Source of the DNA: Planctomycetaceae bacterium
GTDB taxonomy: Bacteria; Planctomycetota; Planctomycetia; Pirellulales; Pirellulaceae
Direction of reading: 5' to 3'
NCBI GenBank assembly: GCA_024642205.1
Contig: JAHEBQ010000023.1
Location: forward strand, 1 to 64,000
DNA length: 64,000 nt
The notes below the pieces were generated by a model that was given only the letters and a program-made list of their open reading frames with translations, was not told the origin of the DNA and did not search any database. Made by a program: the position numbers and the translations under genes. Every line of letters starts with the position of its first letter. Position 1 is the first letter of the stretch. Of the stretch, positions 3,237 to 58,517 are shown in pieces.

Positions 3237-5578
3237 GGGGTGTTGTTTTTCCTGGATTCCCGATTTTTGATCCATTGCAAAGCCACGTTCTGCACCGTTT
3301 GACCTGCAGGGACCGACTTGATCAACGTCAGGTTTTCGGTTGCGCCGGCAGCCTTGTAGGCATCCACAACCATGGAAGCCGATTGTGCGTCTTCACCGAT
3401 TAACAACATGGGTTCAGGAGCTGCCAGGGTCAACAGACCGGGAAGATCCTGGTATTTCAGAACACCAGGAAGTAAATCGGGATCTCGAATGTCTGTGATC
3501 TGGTTGAACCGGAAGCCCCCGGTATTGATCACCAACCCGGCGATTTCGTCCCGTGATTTGAGACCATGCGCGTTCAAGGCGATTTCCAATCCAGACCGAT
3601 CAAAAGCAACCACATACACGGATTCGTCTGGTGGCAAACCGTTGGAGCTCGTCAATTCGGTTACGCTTTGCCAGGTGTTCGCGCGACGCGCCAGTTGTGG
3701 TGCGTTGTAACCGACTGTATAGCACAGTGCTTCGCGCGGGTTGTTGACTCGCCGAGTTTGTTTTTTCTCAGAGGCGCTAATCCAGCCGTTGTTGAATACA
3801 CTGACGGTCATCGAATCCAGGCATGATTTGATAAACGCGTGGAGCTCGTGGTCTGTCTGCAGGGCACCGAACCCGTCATTGTTGATCAGGAGCATGCGCG
3901 TTGATGACCCGTTGGAGATTTCCCGCACGGAGGATACTTCCGGAATGTTGGATGTTCCGAAATCCCACTGGGTTGCGTCCGATCCTTCAAATCCCGATTC
4001 GACTTCTACCGGTTGGCACGATTTCGGCATACCATTGGTCGTTCCGGCCAACTTTGTCACCAATTCCACGAATGTCCCGATGTCATGTTCGTAGTCCACC
4101 AAACTGGGACCCGCGTCCTGGATCAGTGTTTTGAATTCCAGTGCAAACGAGTCCCAATTGGAATGCATGATACGAAACATTGCCTGGCGATCGGAAATGC
4201 CATACTTTTCACCGACTCGTCGGAGTCGTTCAGGATCGTCAGTAAACCGATCAATTAACTGTTCAGTAGCAAAGTTATCGCGAACCGTGCTGGTAGCTGC
4301 CAAATCGGCCAGCAGTCGGCTTTCAAAGAGTTCGCCACCCTGTGGACGCGGGTGGTCGTTGTCAAAAACGGTCAGCTGTTCGGGTTTCAAGAACTCGATT
4401 TCGGTCTCTACTGGCTGCCCATCAAATTTCAAGTGTTTTTTGAACCAGCGGTACATCGCTTCGCGGCTGACTTGATTGTAGTTATGTCCAAACTCAATTC
4501 GGGCCGTGAGGTGAACGTTGTCTTGAACACCGTACAACTCATAGAGTTTTTGCAGTTCAGGAAATCCCCGAGTGGGCATCTCCCTGGTCCAGTCGTTCGC
4601 AGCGGTCAGCCCTAACGGCTTGGGAGCGAACATCGCCGCCAGCTCGACGTTTCCCGTCCCGATCCGGAGATAGGAACAATTTTCACACGTGCAGCCGCCT
4701 TGCATTGCCGTGGAAACCATGACAGCGGGAAATGCTGCTGCCGGACGATCATCGAGTGCACAAACAATAAACGTTTGAGTGCCGCCACCGCTGGCACCGG
4801 TAACGCCGATCCGCGTTGGATCGACATCCGGCAACGATTCCAGAAAATCGAGGGCGCGAATTGAGTTCCAGGCCTGCAATCCCATGACGCTCTGAAGCTG
4901 CTGTTCCGCTTGGGGGCTGAACAGTCCCCAACGACTCGGCGAATTCATTTCCGGTCGTTGTTTGGCGAATCGATGGGCGATGTCGTAACTGATTTGTTGA
5001 CTGTCCGCGTACCCGATCATGTCGTACACGAAAACAATGCAACCCATTTTGGCCAGGTTTGCACAGCGGGACTGGATTTTGTTTTTTGCGTTCGAGCGAA
5101 ATGCCTCAGCGCCGCTGGCGAGGTCATTTGCAATGGCGTCGTCGCTCTGCTCACCAAACCGACCTTGAGGAAAATGGCCGTGAGGCGTGGCGATTCCAGG
5201 GATTTTTCCGTTGAAGTTTTTTGGTTTGTAGAGATTACCTGTCACGAAAAATCCCGGCACACTTTCGAAGTAGACTTTTTCAATCGTGTAATCACCTTGA
5301 TCGATTTTCCCATGAACAACCGCGTTTAACGGTGTTCGTTTGGGGTAGGGCCAGAGTCCGAGTGACACGCGGAGGTGCTTTTTCAACATGGATCTGCGCG
5401 TTTTCCAGGCATCCAAATCCGTTGGAACCTGGAATGGAAAGTAACCATCCAGGTCGCGCAGTGTGGGGACCGGGTTGCGCTCATCAGGGTCTTGCCCTTT
5501 CACGTCCGGGACGCAGGTAGCAAACGCCAGAATCAAGGTGAGGATCCACGAAGCGTTGAGAAATTTGAGTATCGCCAT
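3233..5578 (-). CDS. Secreted alpha/beta hydrolase, acetylxylan-esterase-like
   Basis: Signal peptide MAILKFLNASWILTLILAFATCVPDVKG; nucleophile motif GVTGASGGGTQ; start moved to internal ATG at 5578. Confidence 0.8.
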   Translation of the reverse strand: MAILKFLNASWILTLILAFATCVPDVKGQDPDERNPVPTLRDLDGYFPFQVPTDLDAWKTRRSMLKKHLRVSLGLWPYPKRTPLNAVVHGKIDQGDYTIEKVYFESVPGFFVTGNLYKPKNFNGKIPGIATPHGHFPQGRFGEQSDDAIANDLASGAEAFRSNAKNKIQSRCANLAKMGCIVFVYDMIGYADSQQISYDIAHRFAKQRPEMNSPSRWGLFSPQAEQQLQSVMGLQAWNSIRALDFLESLPDVDPTRIGVTGASGGGTQTFIVCALDDRPAAAFPAVMVSTAMQGGCTCENCSYLRIGTGNVELAAMFAPKPLGLTAANDWTREMPTRGFPELQKLYELYGVQDNVHLTARIEFGHNYNQVSREAMYRWFKKHLKFDGQPVETEIEFLKPEQLTVFDNDHPRPQGGELFESRLLADLAATSTVRDNFATEQLIDRFTDDPERLRRVGEKYGISDRQAMFRIMHSNWDSFALEFKTLIQDAGPSLVDYEHDIGTFVELVTKLAGTTNGMPKSCQPVEVESGFEGSDATQWDFGTSNIPEVSSVREISNGSSTRMLLINNDGFGALQTDHELHAFIKSCLDSMTVSVFNNGWISASEKKQTRRVNNPREALCYTVGYNAPQLARRANTWQSVTELTSSNGLPPDESVYVVAFDRSGLEIALNAHGLKSRDEIAGLVINTGGFRFNQITDIRDPDLLPGVLKYQDLPGLLTLAAPEPMLLIGEDAQSASMVVDAYKAAGATENLTLIKSVPAGQTVQNVALQWIKNRESRKNNTP

Positions 5579-6048
5579 AGTAGTTCTCGTTTGCCAATTA
5601 CGTGTTGTTCGAGTTCGAATTGTAACGTGATTGGGTGCACCTTGCACAAGTGTTTCTTCCGGTCGTTGATTTATCCCGGATTTGATTGACCTCGCAGGCA
5701 GTCTCTTGACAGGACGATGGTGGTCGAGAGAACCTGCCAGCCGAGCAGAACGGCCAGACAGGGTCCGGGGTCGGTTGAATCGTCGTGAGACCCATAAAGT
5801 GCATTATTGATTCGGTTGGTCGCCAGCATTGATAGCCTGCGTTTGCACCACTGAGAAGTTTGGTGCGACGGCTTGCGAATCCCTGGTGTTCCGCCCAGGT
5901 GGAACTGCCTGCCTGGTTTCGAATCAGCCTGACGCAAGTGCCGGTTTAATGGGACGTCCGCGTCGCTTCGCGACTCGGTTGAATAGGCATTCCCAAGGTT
6001 TCACGGTACGATGACCGTTTCCTGTCAGACTGAAAAACGGAGAGTCGA

Positions 6049-6903
6049 ATGCCGATCCTGGGTGCCCACATGTCGATTGCCGGCGGTTATTATAAAGCTG
6101 TCATTGCTGCCCGCCGCGCGGGCTGTGATTGTGTCCAGATCTTTACCAAAAATAACAACCAGTGGCGTGCCAAGGCGTTGACAAACGAGGACACGACCCG
6201 ATTCCGCGATGCGATGGTCGAGCAAGGAATCTCACATCCGCTTTCGCATGCATCGTACCTGATCAATCTTGCCAGCCCCCAGGAGGAATTGCGAACGAAG
6301 AGCGTCAATGCAATGGTCGTTGAATTGGAGCGGGCCAGTGCGTTAGGGATACCCTATGTTGTTTTTCATCCGGGGTCATTCACGACCAGTACCGAAGAAG
6401 AAGGACTCGATGCGATTGTGGGCTCGTTGAATATTATCCACAAAAACACAAGTTCGTTGGATTCAATACCGCTGCTCGAAAACACGGCCGGGCAGGGAAG
6501 CAATCTTGGTTGGAGGTTTGAACACTTGGCACACATTATTGATCAGGTGAAGCACCCCGATCGTGTGGGCGTTTGTATTGATACGTGCCATACATTCGCG
6601 GCCGGCCATCCGTTGGGTACTCCCCAGGAATACAAATCCACCCTCAAAGAGATGGACAAGTCGTTCGGGTTGAACAAGATCAAGGCGTTTCATCTCAATG
6701 ACAGTAAGCAGGAGCTCGGTTCACGGAAGGACCGTCATGAGCACATCGGCGAAGGAAAAATGGGGCTTGAACCGTTTCGGTTGTTGCTCAACGACAAACG
6801 GTTCGCAAAAACTCCGATGTACCTGGAAACGGAAAAGGGCGATCGAGATGGTGAAGACATGGATGAAATGAATCTAAGGACATTGCGCAGGCTGATCGGA
6901 TAG
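6049..6903 (+). CDS. nfo: Deoxyribonuclease IV (endonuclease IV)
   Basis: 284 aa; LGAHMSIAGGYYKAV, CVQIFTKNNNQW, HPGS, DTCHTFAAGH and HLNDSK motifs of AP endonuclease family 2; GGAGAG upstream. Confidence 0.95.
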   Translation: MPILGAHMSIAGGYYKAVIAARRAGCDCVQIFTKNNNQWRAKALTNEDTTRFRDAMVEQGISHPLSHASYLINLASPQEELRTKSVNAMVVELERASALGIPYVVFHPGSFTTSTEEEGLDAIVGSLNIIHKNTSSLDSIPLLENTAGQGSNLGWRFEHLAHIIDQVKHPDRVGVCIDTCHTFAAGHPLGTPQEYKSTLKEMDKSFGLNKIKAFHLNDSKQELGSRKDRHEHIGEGKMGLEPFRLLLNDKRFAKTPMYLETEKGDRDGEDMDEMNLRTLRRLIG

Positions 6904-54384: not shown

Positions 54385-55002
54385 CTATTCCATTTCAGCC
54401 AGAAGTTCCTCGATAATGTCATCCTGGGCTTCATGTGCCGCAGAGCGGACGATGCCCTCGGCGTCGATGATGATGACCGTTGGAAAGCCCTTTACGTTAT
54501 AGGCTTCAACAACCGAAGAATCTTCGCCACAAAAGAAAGAGCGCCAGTTGAGTTCTTTTTCTTTCACGGCTTTCTGGATGTCCTCTAACGTATCGTTAAA
54601 GTTGACACCGACCAGCGCGAATGGCTTGCCGGCTTTTTCCATTTCATTGACGAGCGACCGCTCGTGATCGTACATGGCACGACAAGGTCCTCACCAATCG
54701 CCATAAAAATCGAGCATCACAACTTTGCCTCGATAATCACTCAACTTGAATTCAACGCCATCCAAATCCACCCCAACAATTTCCGGAGCTTCGGTTCCAA
54801 TCGTCGGACCGCCCGAAACTCTGTACCTGGCTGCGGGTTTGGAGTTTGCTGATGCCGGATCTGCCGGCGGTGCGATCGTCGACGACGGTTGCTTGGGCTT
54901 GGTCGGCTTTGCTTCCTCGACCGGCTCTTTGCATCCGGTCGTGATCGCAAAAGCGACCAGGAGCGCGACTGCCAATAACTTATGATTCACCTGATTCTCC
55001 AT
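54385..55002 (-). CDS. Candidate selenoprotein: TlpA/thioredoxin-like lipoprotein with in-frame TGA (Sec) in a UGPC motif
   Basis: Same-frame ORFs 55002-54694 and 54690-54385 joined by a single TGA at 54693-54691: GKVVMLDFYGDW[U]GPCRAMYDHERSLVNE; lipobox ITTGC; downstream GFPTVIIIDAEG thioredoxin fold intact. Confidence 0.78.
54650..54665 (-). promoter_or_regulatory. Candidate bacterial SECIS apical hairpin
   Basis: Transcript strand ACGAGC-GGUC-GCUCGU: 6-bp perfect stem, loop at +32 to +35 after UGA. Confidence 0.6.
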
Positions 55003-55182
55003 GCTGTTTGAGTGATTGAACTGCAATCAAATAATATTCTCTCGGGCCTCTTCGTTGAAGACCGAATCGGCCGTAATTTGCTTCGCCTACAACATTTGAC
55101 TCAAATTTGGTAATCCTTCTCACGACTGGAAATCGACGATCCGGATTCTTGCATCAAACCAGTAACACGACCTGTAACCCCC

Positions 55183-55323
55183 TCAATGCACTTCATCGCG
55201 GTCGGGATATTGATTGTCTCGATCAAGCGCTTTTGCGCCAAGAAGAATTGCACCGGTTGCCGCGATGAACGTCAGTCCCATCATTAACCAGGCCACAATC
55301 CAGAATGTCAAATTCAATGTCAT
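55183..55323 (-). CDS. 46-aa single-TM small protein
   Basis: MTLNLTFWIVAWLMMGLTFIAATGAILLGAKALDRDNQYPDRDEVH; one clear TM helix; no strong Shine-Dalgarno seen. Confidence 0.45.
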   Translation of the reverse strand: MTLNLTFWIVAWLMMGLTFIAATGAILLGAKALDRDNQYPDRDEVH

Positions 55324-55378: not shown

Positions 55379-56962
55379 TCATTTGGGTACCACGCCTTCA
55401 TATTCGTACAACGCAAAAAGGTAGTGAACGACCAATGCGAAAAGTGTTGCCCACAAAATCGTCGATGTCACACTTCGACTGACATCGCTTGTCGAATACT
55501 TCGGCTTGCGTCCCTGGTAGTATGCGATAATCGCGATGCCGACGCCACAGCATAATAGCTTGGCAATCAGCCAACCAAAACCCTTGTAGGTGAACTGCCC
55601 CAGTTCCTCAAGCCCGCGATGGAAGTGCTGATGCCAGAAATCCGGACCACGGCGTGGATCGGCCAGGACGAACGTAACCAGGCTTGTGTATTTCGCCACG
55701 TAGTAGGCCGCATAGCTGAGCAAAGGCGTGCCGATCACGAACGACCACATGATCGGGGTCAATAGATAGAATTGCGGATTCGCACCAAACGTCTTCATTG
55801 CATCGATTTGATTGCCAAACTGTCGACCACCAATATCCGAGGTGACAGCGGCACCGCAACGAGCCGCAATCAGAACACATGACAATACCGGTACGAAGAT
55901 TCGATACATTGCGAATCCCAACGCGGTCAAGAGATCTTCTACCAACAGAGGTTCGGTATAATTGGAATACGGCAGGAACTGAAACGTGAAATACGTAGTC
56001 ACGAACCCGGAGATCAGTCCGGAAGCCATCAAGTACAAGAACGCCGTCGGACCAAAAACGAGGCGCGCGTAATGAGCAAAAAAACGAAACCCCCAAACCG
56101 GGTTTTTCCAAACTGGAATCAGGCTGCTCAGTCCGATCAATAATGCGATGAGCGCGTTGGTCGTACCGACAAAAAAACTGGAAAACCAGTTTCGGGCCCG
56201 GTCTCCAACCGATCTCGATTCAATGTCATCATGTTTCCTGACGGTCGCTGTCGCCATGGGAGCCAGGCGATCCGGAATTGTTGGCCAGTCGTTTTTTTCA
56301 ACTTCTACCAACTGACCAGCCTGGGGATCCAGCAAGTAAATCCGATCCGCGATCGGCATCAGCGAATGGTAGTCGTGTGTCACGATCACCGAGGTCTTGC
56401 CAAATGTCTCGTGGGTCTCGCGAATCAAGTCAGCGACCTGTCGCCCTGTCAGGGGATCCAGACCCGACGTGGGTTCGTCGTAAAGTATGGCCGCCGGGTT
56501 GTAAGCCAGGGTCCGCGCGATTGCCAGGCGTTGACGCTGGCCGCCACTCAGTCGAGATGTCGGCACATTGGCTGGAACACGAAGTTGCGAGAGCAGTTCC
56601 TTGCATGGAACGGGACTGGCGTGCTCGCGACCACACGAGCGGGCGAACTCCATGTTGCCCAGTGGAGAAAGCTCATCGAACAGGGCAAAAGACTGAAAGA
56701 CAACGCCGGCCCGGCCGCTTTTGGTCTTTACTCCATCGATCAAGACGTTGCCCGTCCAGGAAATCCCTTCGCTGACCGGTTTCAAAAGTCCTGCCATCAT
56801 CCGCAGCAGGATCGATTTTCCAACTCCACTGGGACCGACGATCAATGTAATTTCGCCGGGTCGAAATTTGGCATTGGCTCCGGTCAGGAGTTTTTGCGTA
56901 CCGGCAGTGACATGGATGTTCTGAATCGAAATTCCTGCACCAGCATCCAGTTTATCGTTCAA
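55379..56962 (-). CDS. Fused ABC ATPase + MlaE-type permease
   Basis: LIVGPSGVGKSILLRMMAGLL, RLSGGQRQRLAIARTLAYNPAAILYDEPTSGLDP; C-terminal permease with RCGAAVTSDIGGRQFGNQIDAMKTFGANPQFYLLTPIM. Confidence 0.88.
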   Translation of the reverse strand: MNDKLDAGAGISIQNIHVTAGTQKLLTGANAKFRPGEITLIVGPSGVGKSILLRMMAGLLKPVSEGISWTGNVLIDGVKTKSGRAGVVFQSFALFDELSPLGNMEFARSCGREHASPVPCKELLSQLRVPANVPTSRLSGGQRQRLAIARTLAYNPAAILYDEPTSGLDPLTGRQVADLIRETHETFGKTSVIVTHDYHSLMPIADRIYLLDPQAGQLVEVEKNDWPTIPDRLAPMATATVRKHDDIESRSVGDRARNWFSSFFVGTTNALIALLIGLSSLIPVWKNPVWGFRFFAHYARLVFGPTAFLYLMASGLISGFVTTYFTFQFLPYSNYTEPLLVEDLLTALGFAMYRIFVPVLSCVLIAARCGAAVTSDIGGRQFGNQIDAMKTFGANPQFYLLTPIMWSFVIGTPLLSYAAYYVAKYTSLVTFVLADPRRGPDFWHQHFHRGLEELGQFTYKGFGWLIAKLLCCGVGIAIIAYYQGRKPKYSTSDVSRSVTSTILWATLFALVVHYLFALYEYEGVVPK

Positions 56963-58284
56963 TTGCGGTTCCTCGCCGGTGCGTAAGGAATCTCGGCCGG
57001 GCTATCGGCGATTCGAACAGGTAGAGATTTCGGTTCTGGTACTGCCGCTCTGCTGTTGGCGCTGTCCTGAGCAGCCGTATGAAGCGTAAACCACTGGCTA
57101 TCCTTGTGAAGAATTCGATGCCGGAGCACGCGAGCAAACTCTGGCGTGATTTGTTTTCGTGGGGAGCCAAACAGCGCGATACCGATCTCCGTAATCGTCG
57201 GCTCAAGCCTCTCATTGGCCAGAGCAATGGCTCGGAGCGCCTCAGGACTCTGCCAATGCTGTTCGAGAACGCCTTTTAAGCGGTTGTTATTTTGAAAGAC
57301 CTCCTGAAGCACTTCCTGTAGCAGATCCTGAACCTCGGGGTCGTTGACGACGACTTTGAGGCTTCTCGCCACGGTCAATCGCACTTTTTCGTTCTGCGAT
57401 ATTTTTTTGATCACCGATTTTTGCAACTCGACAAATTCGTTCAAATGCCCCTCAAGAACCGGAATGGCTTTCTCGTCGACGAATCGTTTGAACTCGCGTT
57501 CTGTCAGATTTTTGTCTGGCAACGGGGCCTGGTCATACAGGTATCGCCAGCCAAAACGAAACACAGAAACCTGGCTCCAGATTTCCGCGCCGACCTGGTT
57601 TGCCAGCGGTTCGCATTCAGCCTGAACGATTGGCCAGATTTCATCGCGGATCAATGGGACGATTTCTTTTTCGATCAATTCCGTTTGATAACGCTGTCCG
57701 ATCAGCCGAATCTGATCCTCCCGCGCCTCGAATGCCCGATTCAGATCGTCGCGAATCACATCGGAAGCTCTGCGAAGCGACTCTTCAACGACGGGTCGTA
57801 ACGCTTTAAGAATTTCATCCTGGTTTTTTTGATAGGAATCAACAATCAGCTTCGTCAGTTCACGGCGCTTTTCCGGCGGCAGCATGGTTTGCAGGACCCA
57901 CGCTGAGGAGTCGGGCGCCGAGTGATACATCATGAAATCGCCATCCGCAATTTGAGGAGCCGCTCCGTAGAGTGTCACGTAGGCTTTCGTAACCCAGGCC
58001 AGTCCTTTGAAGGTGCTGTCAGCCTCCTCAAGTCGCGTCACCACGCCGATGGGGGCGACGCTGTCGGAATCTGGTAAATAGACCGGATCGCCTGTGGCAA
58101 CCAGCTGATAATCCTCCATCCTGATCTCAACCAACCGACGCTGATTGCCAACGTATTGTGCAATCAATGTGGTTGCCGTTGGCGCTCGACTGAACGATTG
58201 CCGCGCGAAAATGATTCCGACGGCGACAATCCCGACCCAGATGAGCATCCCTATGATGGCTCGAAATTCCAAGTTTTGTCGCAT
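56959..58284 (-). CDS. Membrane-anchored MCE-like/coiled-coil partner of the ABC transporter
   Basis: N-terminal TM, then GDPVYLPDSDSVAPIGVVTRLEE (weakly MCE-like) and a long helical region; ATGA overlap with the ATPase-permease gene. Confidence 0.5.
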   Translation of the reverse strand: MRQNLEFRAIIGMLIWVGIVAVGIIFARQSFSRAPTATTLIAQYVGNQRRLVEIRMEDYQLVATGDPVYLPDSDSVAPIGVVTRLEEADSTFKGLAWVTKAYVTLYGAAPQIADGDFMMYHSAPDSSAWVLQTMLPPEKRRELTKLIVDSYQKNQDEILKALRPVVEESLRRASDVIRDDLNRAFEAREDQIRLIGQRYQTELIEKEIVPLIRDEIWPIVQAECEPLANQVGAEIWSQVSVFRFGWRYLYDQAPLPDKNLTEREFKRFVDEKAIPVLEGHLNEFVELQKSVIKKISQNEKVRLTVARSLKVVVNDPEVQDLLQEVLQEVFQNNNRLKGVLEQHWQSPEALRAIALANERLEPTITEIGIALFGSPRKQITPEFARVLRHRILHKDSQWFTLHTAAQDSANSRAAVPEPKSLPVRIADSPAEIPYAPARNRN

Positions 58285-58517
58285 GGGCAGATTCGGTTGA
58301 TGGTGGAACAATCGTTCAACACATGTGAAACGATAACGATGGAGTACCAGATTTTCATACCCCAGATCGCGGGAATTTGTTTCGGGTATACCGGAGACGC
58401 GCCCAATGTGCTATTTCCCTTATTCTAGGCTGGAAACCGGTCAAACGCTGTTTTGAGCGGCACGCTTCGTTGTTTGTTCATCACTCCAAACATCAATATT
58501 TCCTGGACCAACCAGCA

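Follow-up and report, generated by a model that had tools for sequence, protein, structure and literature searches.

The window analyzed here is a stretch of 64,000 nucleotides (nt) from a bacterium of the Planctomycetaceae. On its minus strand, positions 54385 to 55026 form a single reading frame whose sole interruption is a TGA codon at 54693-54691 (Table 1). An earlier sequence-only reading had described two open reading frames (ORFs) here (55026-54691 and 54675-54385) that share one frame and are split by this TGA, and its coordinates are right. As it had proposed, translation through the codon yields a complete thioredoxin-fold protein, predicted to be a lipoprotein, in which the TGA takes the place of the first Cys of WCGPC. 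Its parts are a putative lipoprotein signal sequence, a spacer, and a TlpA-like domain of the AhpC-TSA/Redoxin type. The position that it gave for the UGA also stands, but its start codon, ATG 55002, which made the UGA codon 104 of 205, probably does not. Orthologues keep a GGAG some 6 nt upstream of a start codon, GTG or ATG, that aligns with window position 54990, and orthologue L051 has ACG, and thus no start codon, where the window has ATG 55002. Judged from these alignments, GTG 54990 is therefore the more likely start, with the UGA at codon 100 of 201. When the window was scanned for TGA codons that interrupt an otherwise long open frame and are followed 18 to 39 nt downstream by a hairpin with a GGTC loop, this UGA was the only matching site.

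The best Pfam match of the read-through protein was PF00578 (AhpC-TSA; 66.7 bits versus a cut-off of 26), and PF08534 (Redoxin) reached 58.4 bits (cut-off, 26.6). The active-site motif is U-G-P-C, a UxxC motif with selenocysteine (Sec) first. ResA proper (NF002854) was the top NCBIfam profile, yet its score of 70.5 bits lies below the cut-off of 170; NF041054 (ResA-like WAxxUGC protein; 32.9 versus 300) and NF053656 (TUGYCR redoxin; 27.8 versus 100) also scored below their cut-offs. AlphaFold2 produced a confident thioredoxin fold of one domain (domain pLDDT of about 95 to 98), the top Foldseek matches of which were ResA structures (4nmu and 2h1b; TM-score by target, 0.85 to 0.86). The closest proteins by sequence were ResA and Bacteroides thiol-disulfide oxidoreductases. 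The protein resembles ResA in fold only and is not ResA proper by profile. To our knowledge, the ResA and TlpA proteins that have been studied experimentally use Cys. The candidate N-terminal signal/lipobox region, MNHKLLAVALLVAFAITTGC, has a Cys that is invariant in 19 aligned homologues and is the predicted site of lipid anchoring.

Upstream lie the genes for a small membrane-type protein, a fused ABC ATPase/MlaE permease, and a 450-amino-acid protein; the first two recur at all 16 loci tested, and the third at the three where the flank was long enough (Table 1). The close orthologue loci also have the convergent FG-GAP gene, and the methyltransferase gene occurs at the four where enough flanking sequence was available. 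A reading of 56959-58311 as an MCE-domain protein was supported neither by Pfam nor by AlphaFold2, the model of which was too poor to identify the protein. Gene order suggests that the selenoprotein may be functionally tied to the ABC-MlaE transporter.

Table 1. Features of the selenoprotein locus and its upstream neighbors (window coordinates)
Feature	Position	Strand	Basis or remark
Predicted selenoprotein gene, ResA/TlpA-like (PF00578/PF08534) lipoprotein	54385..54990	-	Likely GTG start (alternative, ATG 55002), TAG stop; UGA predicted to be read as Sec
Shine-Dalgarno-like GGAG, 6 nt upstream of GTG 54990	54997..55000	-	Kept in orthologues
Lipobox Cys (TTGC), predicted lipid-attachment site	54931..54933	-	Sequence; Cys invariant in 19 aligned homologues
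UGA for Sec (predicted), first active-site residue of W-U-G-P-C	54691..54693	-	TGA 57/68, Cys 11/68, other 0
Second active-site Cys (TGT)	54682..54684	-	TGC/TGT in 66/68 homologues; TGA in the other 2 (UxxU)
bSECIS apical hairpin ACGAGC-GGUC-GCUCGU, within coding sequence	54650..54665	-	Almost no variation among 57 TGA homologues; lacking from 10/11 Cys homologues
Pro of GFPT, thioredoxin-fold cis-Pro position	54481..54483	-	Invariant column P174 (alignment); cis geometry inferred from family
46-amino-acid small membrane-type ORF, between ABC-MlaE gene and selenoprotein gene	55183..55323	-	tblastn matches, same place in 16/16 loci tested
Fused ABC ATPase/MlaE permease, upstream neighbor	55379..56962	-	Pfam ABC_tran 88 bits, MlaE 99 bits; adjacent in 16/16 loci tested
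450-amino-acid protein, upstream of ABC-MlaE gene	56959..58311	-	No Pfam match; kept in all 3 loci with enough flank

Homologues collected from 60 related genomes, the GTDB contig collection, and further stretches gave 68 non-redundant sites. In this check, which the sequence-only reading had proposed, only Sec (UGA) or Cys aligned with the UGA: 57 sites carry TGA, 11 carry TGC or TGT, and none carries anything else, a ratio of Sec to Cys that is biased upward because the sampling began from a Sec protein. Two order-level relatives (L093, site 1157, and L094, site 1398) are UxxU forms, with TGA at both active-site positions and the same hairpin. In orthologue pairs, dN/dS was about 0.05 to 0.08 on both sides of the UGA and synonymous differences were near saturation; by these comparisons, purifying selection on the coding sequence carries on downstream of the UGA.

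The hairpin ACGAGC-GGUC-GCUCGU begins 25 nt after the UGA, and its loop begins 31 nt after it. A published model of the bacterial SECIS (PMC13188914) specifies a loop of 3 to 9 nt, a stem of 4 to 16 bp, a G in the first two loop positions, a distance of 16 to 37 nt from the UGA, and a minimum free energy of at most −7.5. The hairpin passes all of these constraints, with a 4-nt loop (GGUC) starting with G, a 6-bp stem, a spacing of 31 nt, and a minimum free energy of −15 kcal/mol. In the TGA forms, its codons are fixed or nearly so (Arg CGG in 57/57, Ser TCG in 56/57, and Leu CTC in 54/57), as against saturated synonymous sites elsewhere; in the rest of the same genes, CGG, TCG, and CTC make up 24, 17, and 28% of Arg, Ser, and Leu codons, respectively. 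The check for a bacterial SECIS that had been proposed for this gene thus found a model-conforming hairpin under nucleotide-level selection downstream of the UGA. Variants are few and mostly keep the pairing, with two-sided changes at two pairs; the near-invariance of the hairpin leaves little covariation, and for the same reason RNAalifold recovers just the inner four pairs on the family. The window's own hairpin is not exceptionally stable compared with shuffled sequences (z = −0.84), so that single-sequence stability is uninformative and the case for the hairpin rests on its conservation. Rfam gave no match anywhere in the window, and matches to the SECIS model elsewhere in the window's genome were weak (E values of 0.1 to 5).

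The sole Cys homologue that keeps the apical hairpin, letter for letter, is L027 (TGC; L027:1480-2079, G026:C166). It nests among Sec proteins with support of 100/85, and its genome still has tRNA-Sec. From its sequence and placement, L027 is likely a recent Sec-to-Cys replacement with a remnant SECIS. Cys proteins derived from Sec proteins (FdhA and HesB-like) retain SECIS-like structures (PMC1794560, Fig. 4), and L027 resembles them as a Cys form retaining such a remnant; it differs in belonging to another family and in that its apical hairpin is still intact letter for letter. A search of relatives in which TGY stood for the Sec codon gave four matches, of which three are unlike the gene and look like chance.

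The assembly of the window's own genome (6.83 Mb, 158 contigs, 92% complete) was searched for the Sec machinery, the absence of which the sequence-only reading had named as a refutation. All four components are present and score above curated cut-offs: tRNA-Sec on C54 (66.7 bits; called tRNA-SeC with anticodon tca by ARAGORN), full-length SelB on C9 (380 bits, model positions 2 to 579 of 581), SelA on C125 (575 bits), and SelD on C148 (354 bits). SelD (L069:1530, G000:C148) has its own in-frame TGA, followed downstream by a GGUC-containing hairpin, and is itself a predicted selenoprotein.

In a sample of 392 genomes and 267 genera from across the phylum, 72 genomes and 51 genera had the UGA and hairpin at fixed spacing, a few of these matches looking like chance; a reversed control gave 2 matches. 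Among the 60 relatives, and approximately, since the counts refer to the matches listed, 25 genomes have a TGA homologue together with tRNA-Sec (threshold of at least 60 bits) and 4 have a TGA homologue without it; those 4 are 71 to 88% complete. Where no TGA homologue was listed, genomes split 15/16 for tRNA-Sec; genomes with a TGA homologue tend to have tRNA-Sec as well (Fisher P = 0.0025). The window's genome holds four TGA copies, including this gene, among the matches listed. On its contig C74, Sec and Cys TlpA-domain paralogues lie a few kilobases apart (L075:1215-2918 and 5392-6663, G000:C74).

These data strongly support the earlier inference of a Sec-encoded gene, through the machinery, the alignment of Sec or Cys only, and a SECIS under selection, and none of the refutation tests it had named that were run succeeded. 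We put the probability at roughly 96% that the gene encodes a selenoprotein, a predicted lipid-anchored oxidoreductase of the ResA/TlpA type whose UGA is decoded as Sec by tRNA-Sec(UCA) and SelB with the SECIS in the gene. SelB bound to a SECIS delivers Sec-tRNA at the UGA. In this gene, the internal UGA would be decoded by tRNA-Sec(UCA) and SelB, directed by the hairpin in the coding sequence 25 to 40 nt downstream. The product would then be exported by its signal peptide and lipid anchored, with a thioredoxin fold and a Sec-Gly-Pro-Cys active site. We infer that its site of action is probably extracytoplasmic and its probable role that of a thiol/selenol-disulfide oxidoreductase (a reductase or a peroxidase-like enzyme), in which Sec would attack disulfides or peroxides and Cys107 (ATG numbering) would resolve.

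The alternative that fares best, itself highly improbable, is that the locus yields two products, one being the N-terminal part of the lipoprotein and the other a C-terminal fragment that starts at an internal ATG at 54675. This ATG follows the UGA closely and opens a 96-amino-acid ORF, and under selenium scarcity some termination may occur at the UGA of selenoprotein mRNAs; against this, truncation loses the active-site motif and splits a thioredoxin fold modeled as one domain, and ATG 54675 is the family-conserved Met of RAMY, also found in Cys homologues with uninterrupted frames. Still less credit is due to the idea that a reassigned code or leaky suppression places Trp, Cys, or some residue other than Sec at the UGA. 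The frame would be open under any code with TGA as sense, but some homologous genes in the set terminate with TGA stops, the site alternates with Cys codons only, and a complete Sec system and SECIS are present. Both readings were rejected on conservation. A pseudogene or a sequencing or assembly error, with a Cys codon (TGC or TGT) mutated or miscalled in a dead gene, would take a single A/C or A/T change in a fragmented assembly, but it is already refuted by a TGA kept across genera with its hairpin and followed by persisting coding constraint; a miscall in particular, which the sequence-only reading had named as a refutation, is in effect excluded, since dozens of independent assemblies share this TGA.

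The kind of gene encoding this selenoprotein is already known, since UxxC proteins of the PF00578/TlpA type are cataloged as selenoproteins and the use of Sec by planctomycetes is established. UxxC members of PF00578, PF08534, and cd02966 are known or predicted selenoproteins (PMC13188914; PMC2398784; PMC1088965). The protein is like the Prx-like thiol:disulfide oxidoreductase selenoproteins (“Prx-like 1” of the GOS survey) in belonging to PF00578 and having UxxC with Sec first, and the UxxU form listed for that group is also present in our homologue set (PMC13188914, Table 1; PMC2398784). Unlike them, it belongs to a planctomycete-centered group of predicted lipoproteins whose SECIS is almost fixed in sequence; for the Prx-like (PF00578 UxxC) family, the open-access papers searched mention neither planctomycetes nor a lipoprotein. 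With ResA as its closest structure, it is also like the TlpA/ResA-like and redoxin selenoproteins (cd02966 UxxC and PF08534 UxxC; PMC13188914), although its motif is UGPC or UPPC, unlike that of UGC-containing TlpA. For the Porphyra-associated planctomycete strains P1 and P2, the main text of PMC4807772 reports Sec decoding genes and selenoproteins, which in P1 are not co-localized, as here; that main text does not mention TlpA, the selenoprotein list being in the supplement. A search of the main text of open papers found none that joined TlpA selenoproteins with planctomycetes.

What is unusual is how nearly invariant the SECIS sequence is across the phylum. A much bolder picture, which we consider unlikely, is that of a Sec-TlpA subfamily that spans the planctomycetes and has been duplicated repeatedly, its nearly letter-for-letter SECIS dictating Arg-Ser-Leu after the active site in about 50 genera. 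One clade of it, linked to an operon for an MlaE-type lipid transporter, might then supply the transport of envelope lipids with a redox step that depends on selenium. The almost invariant SECIS is a sharp probe for finding relatives, and the hairpin is a clean natural case of an RNA structure constraining a protein sequence. With its intact hairpin, the Cys homologue L027 makes a recent Sec-to-Cys replacement directly testable. Annotation of many planctomycete genomes would split this gene and its relatives into two fragments each or call them pseudogenes, and would hide a predicted multi-copy group of extracytoplasmic selenoproteins.
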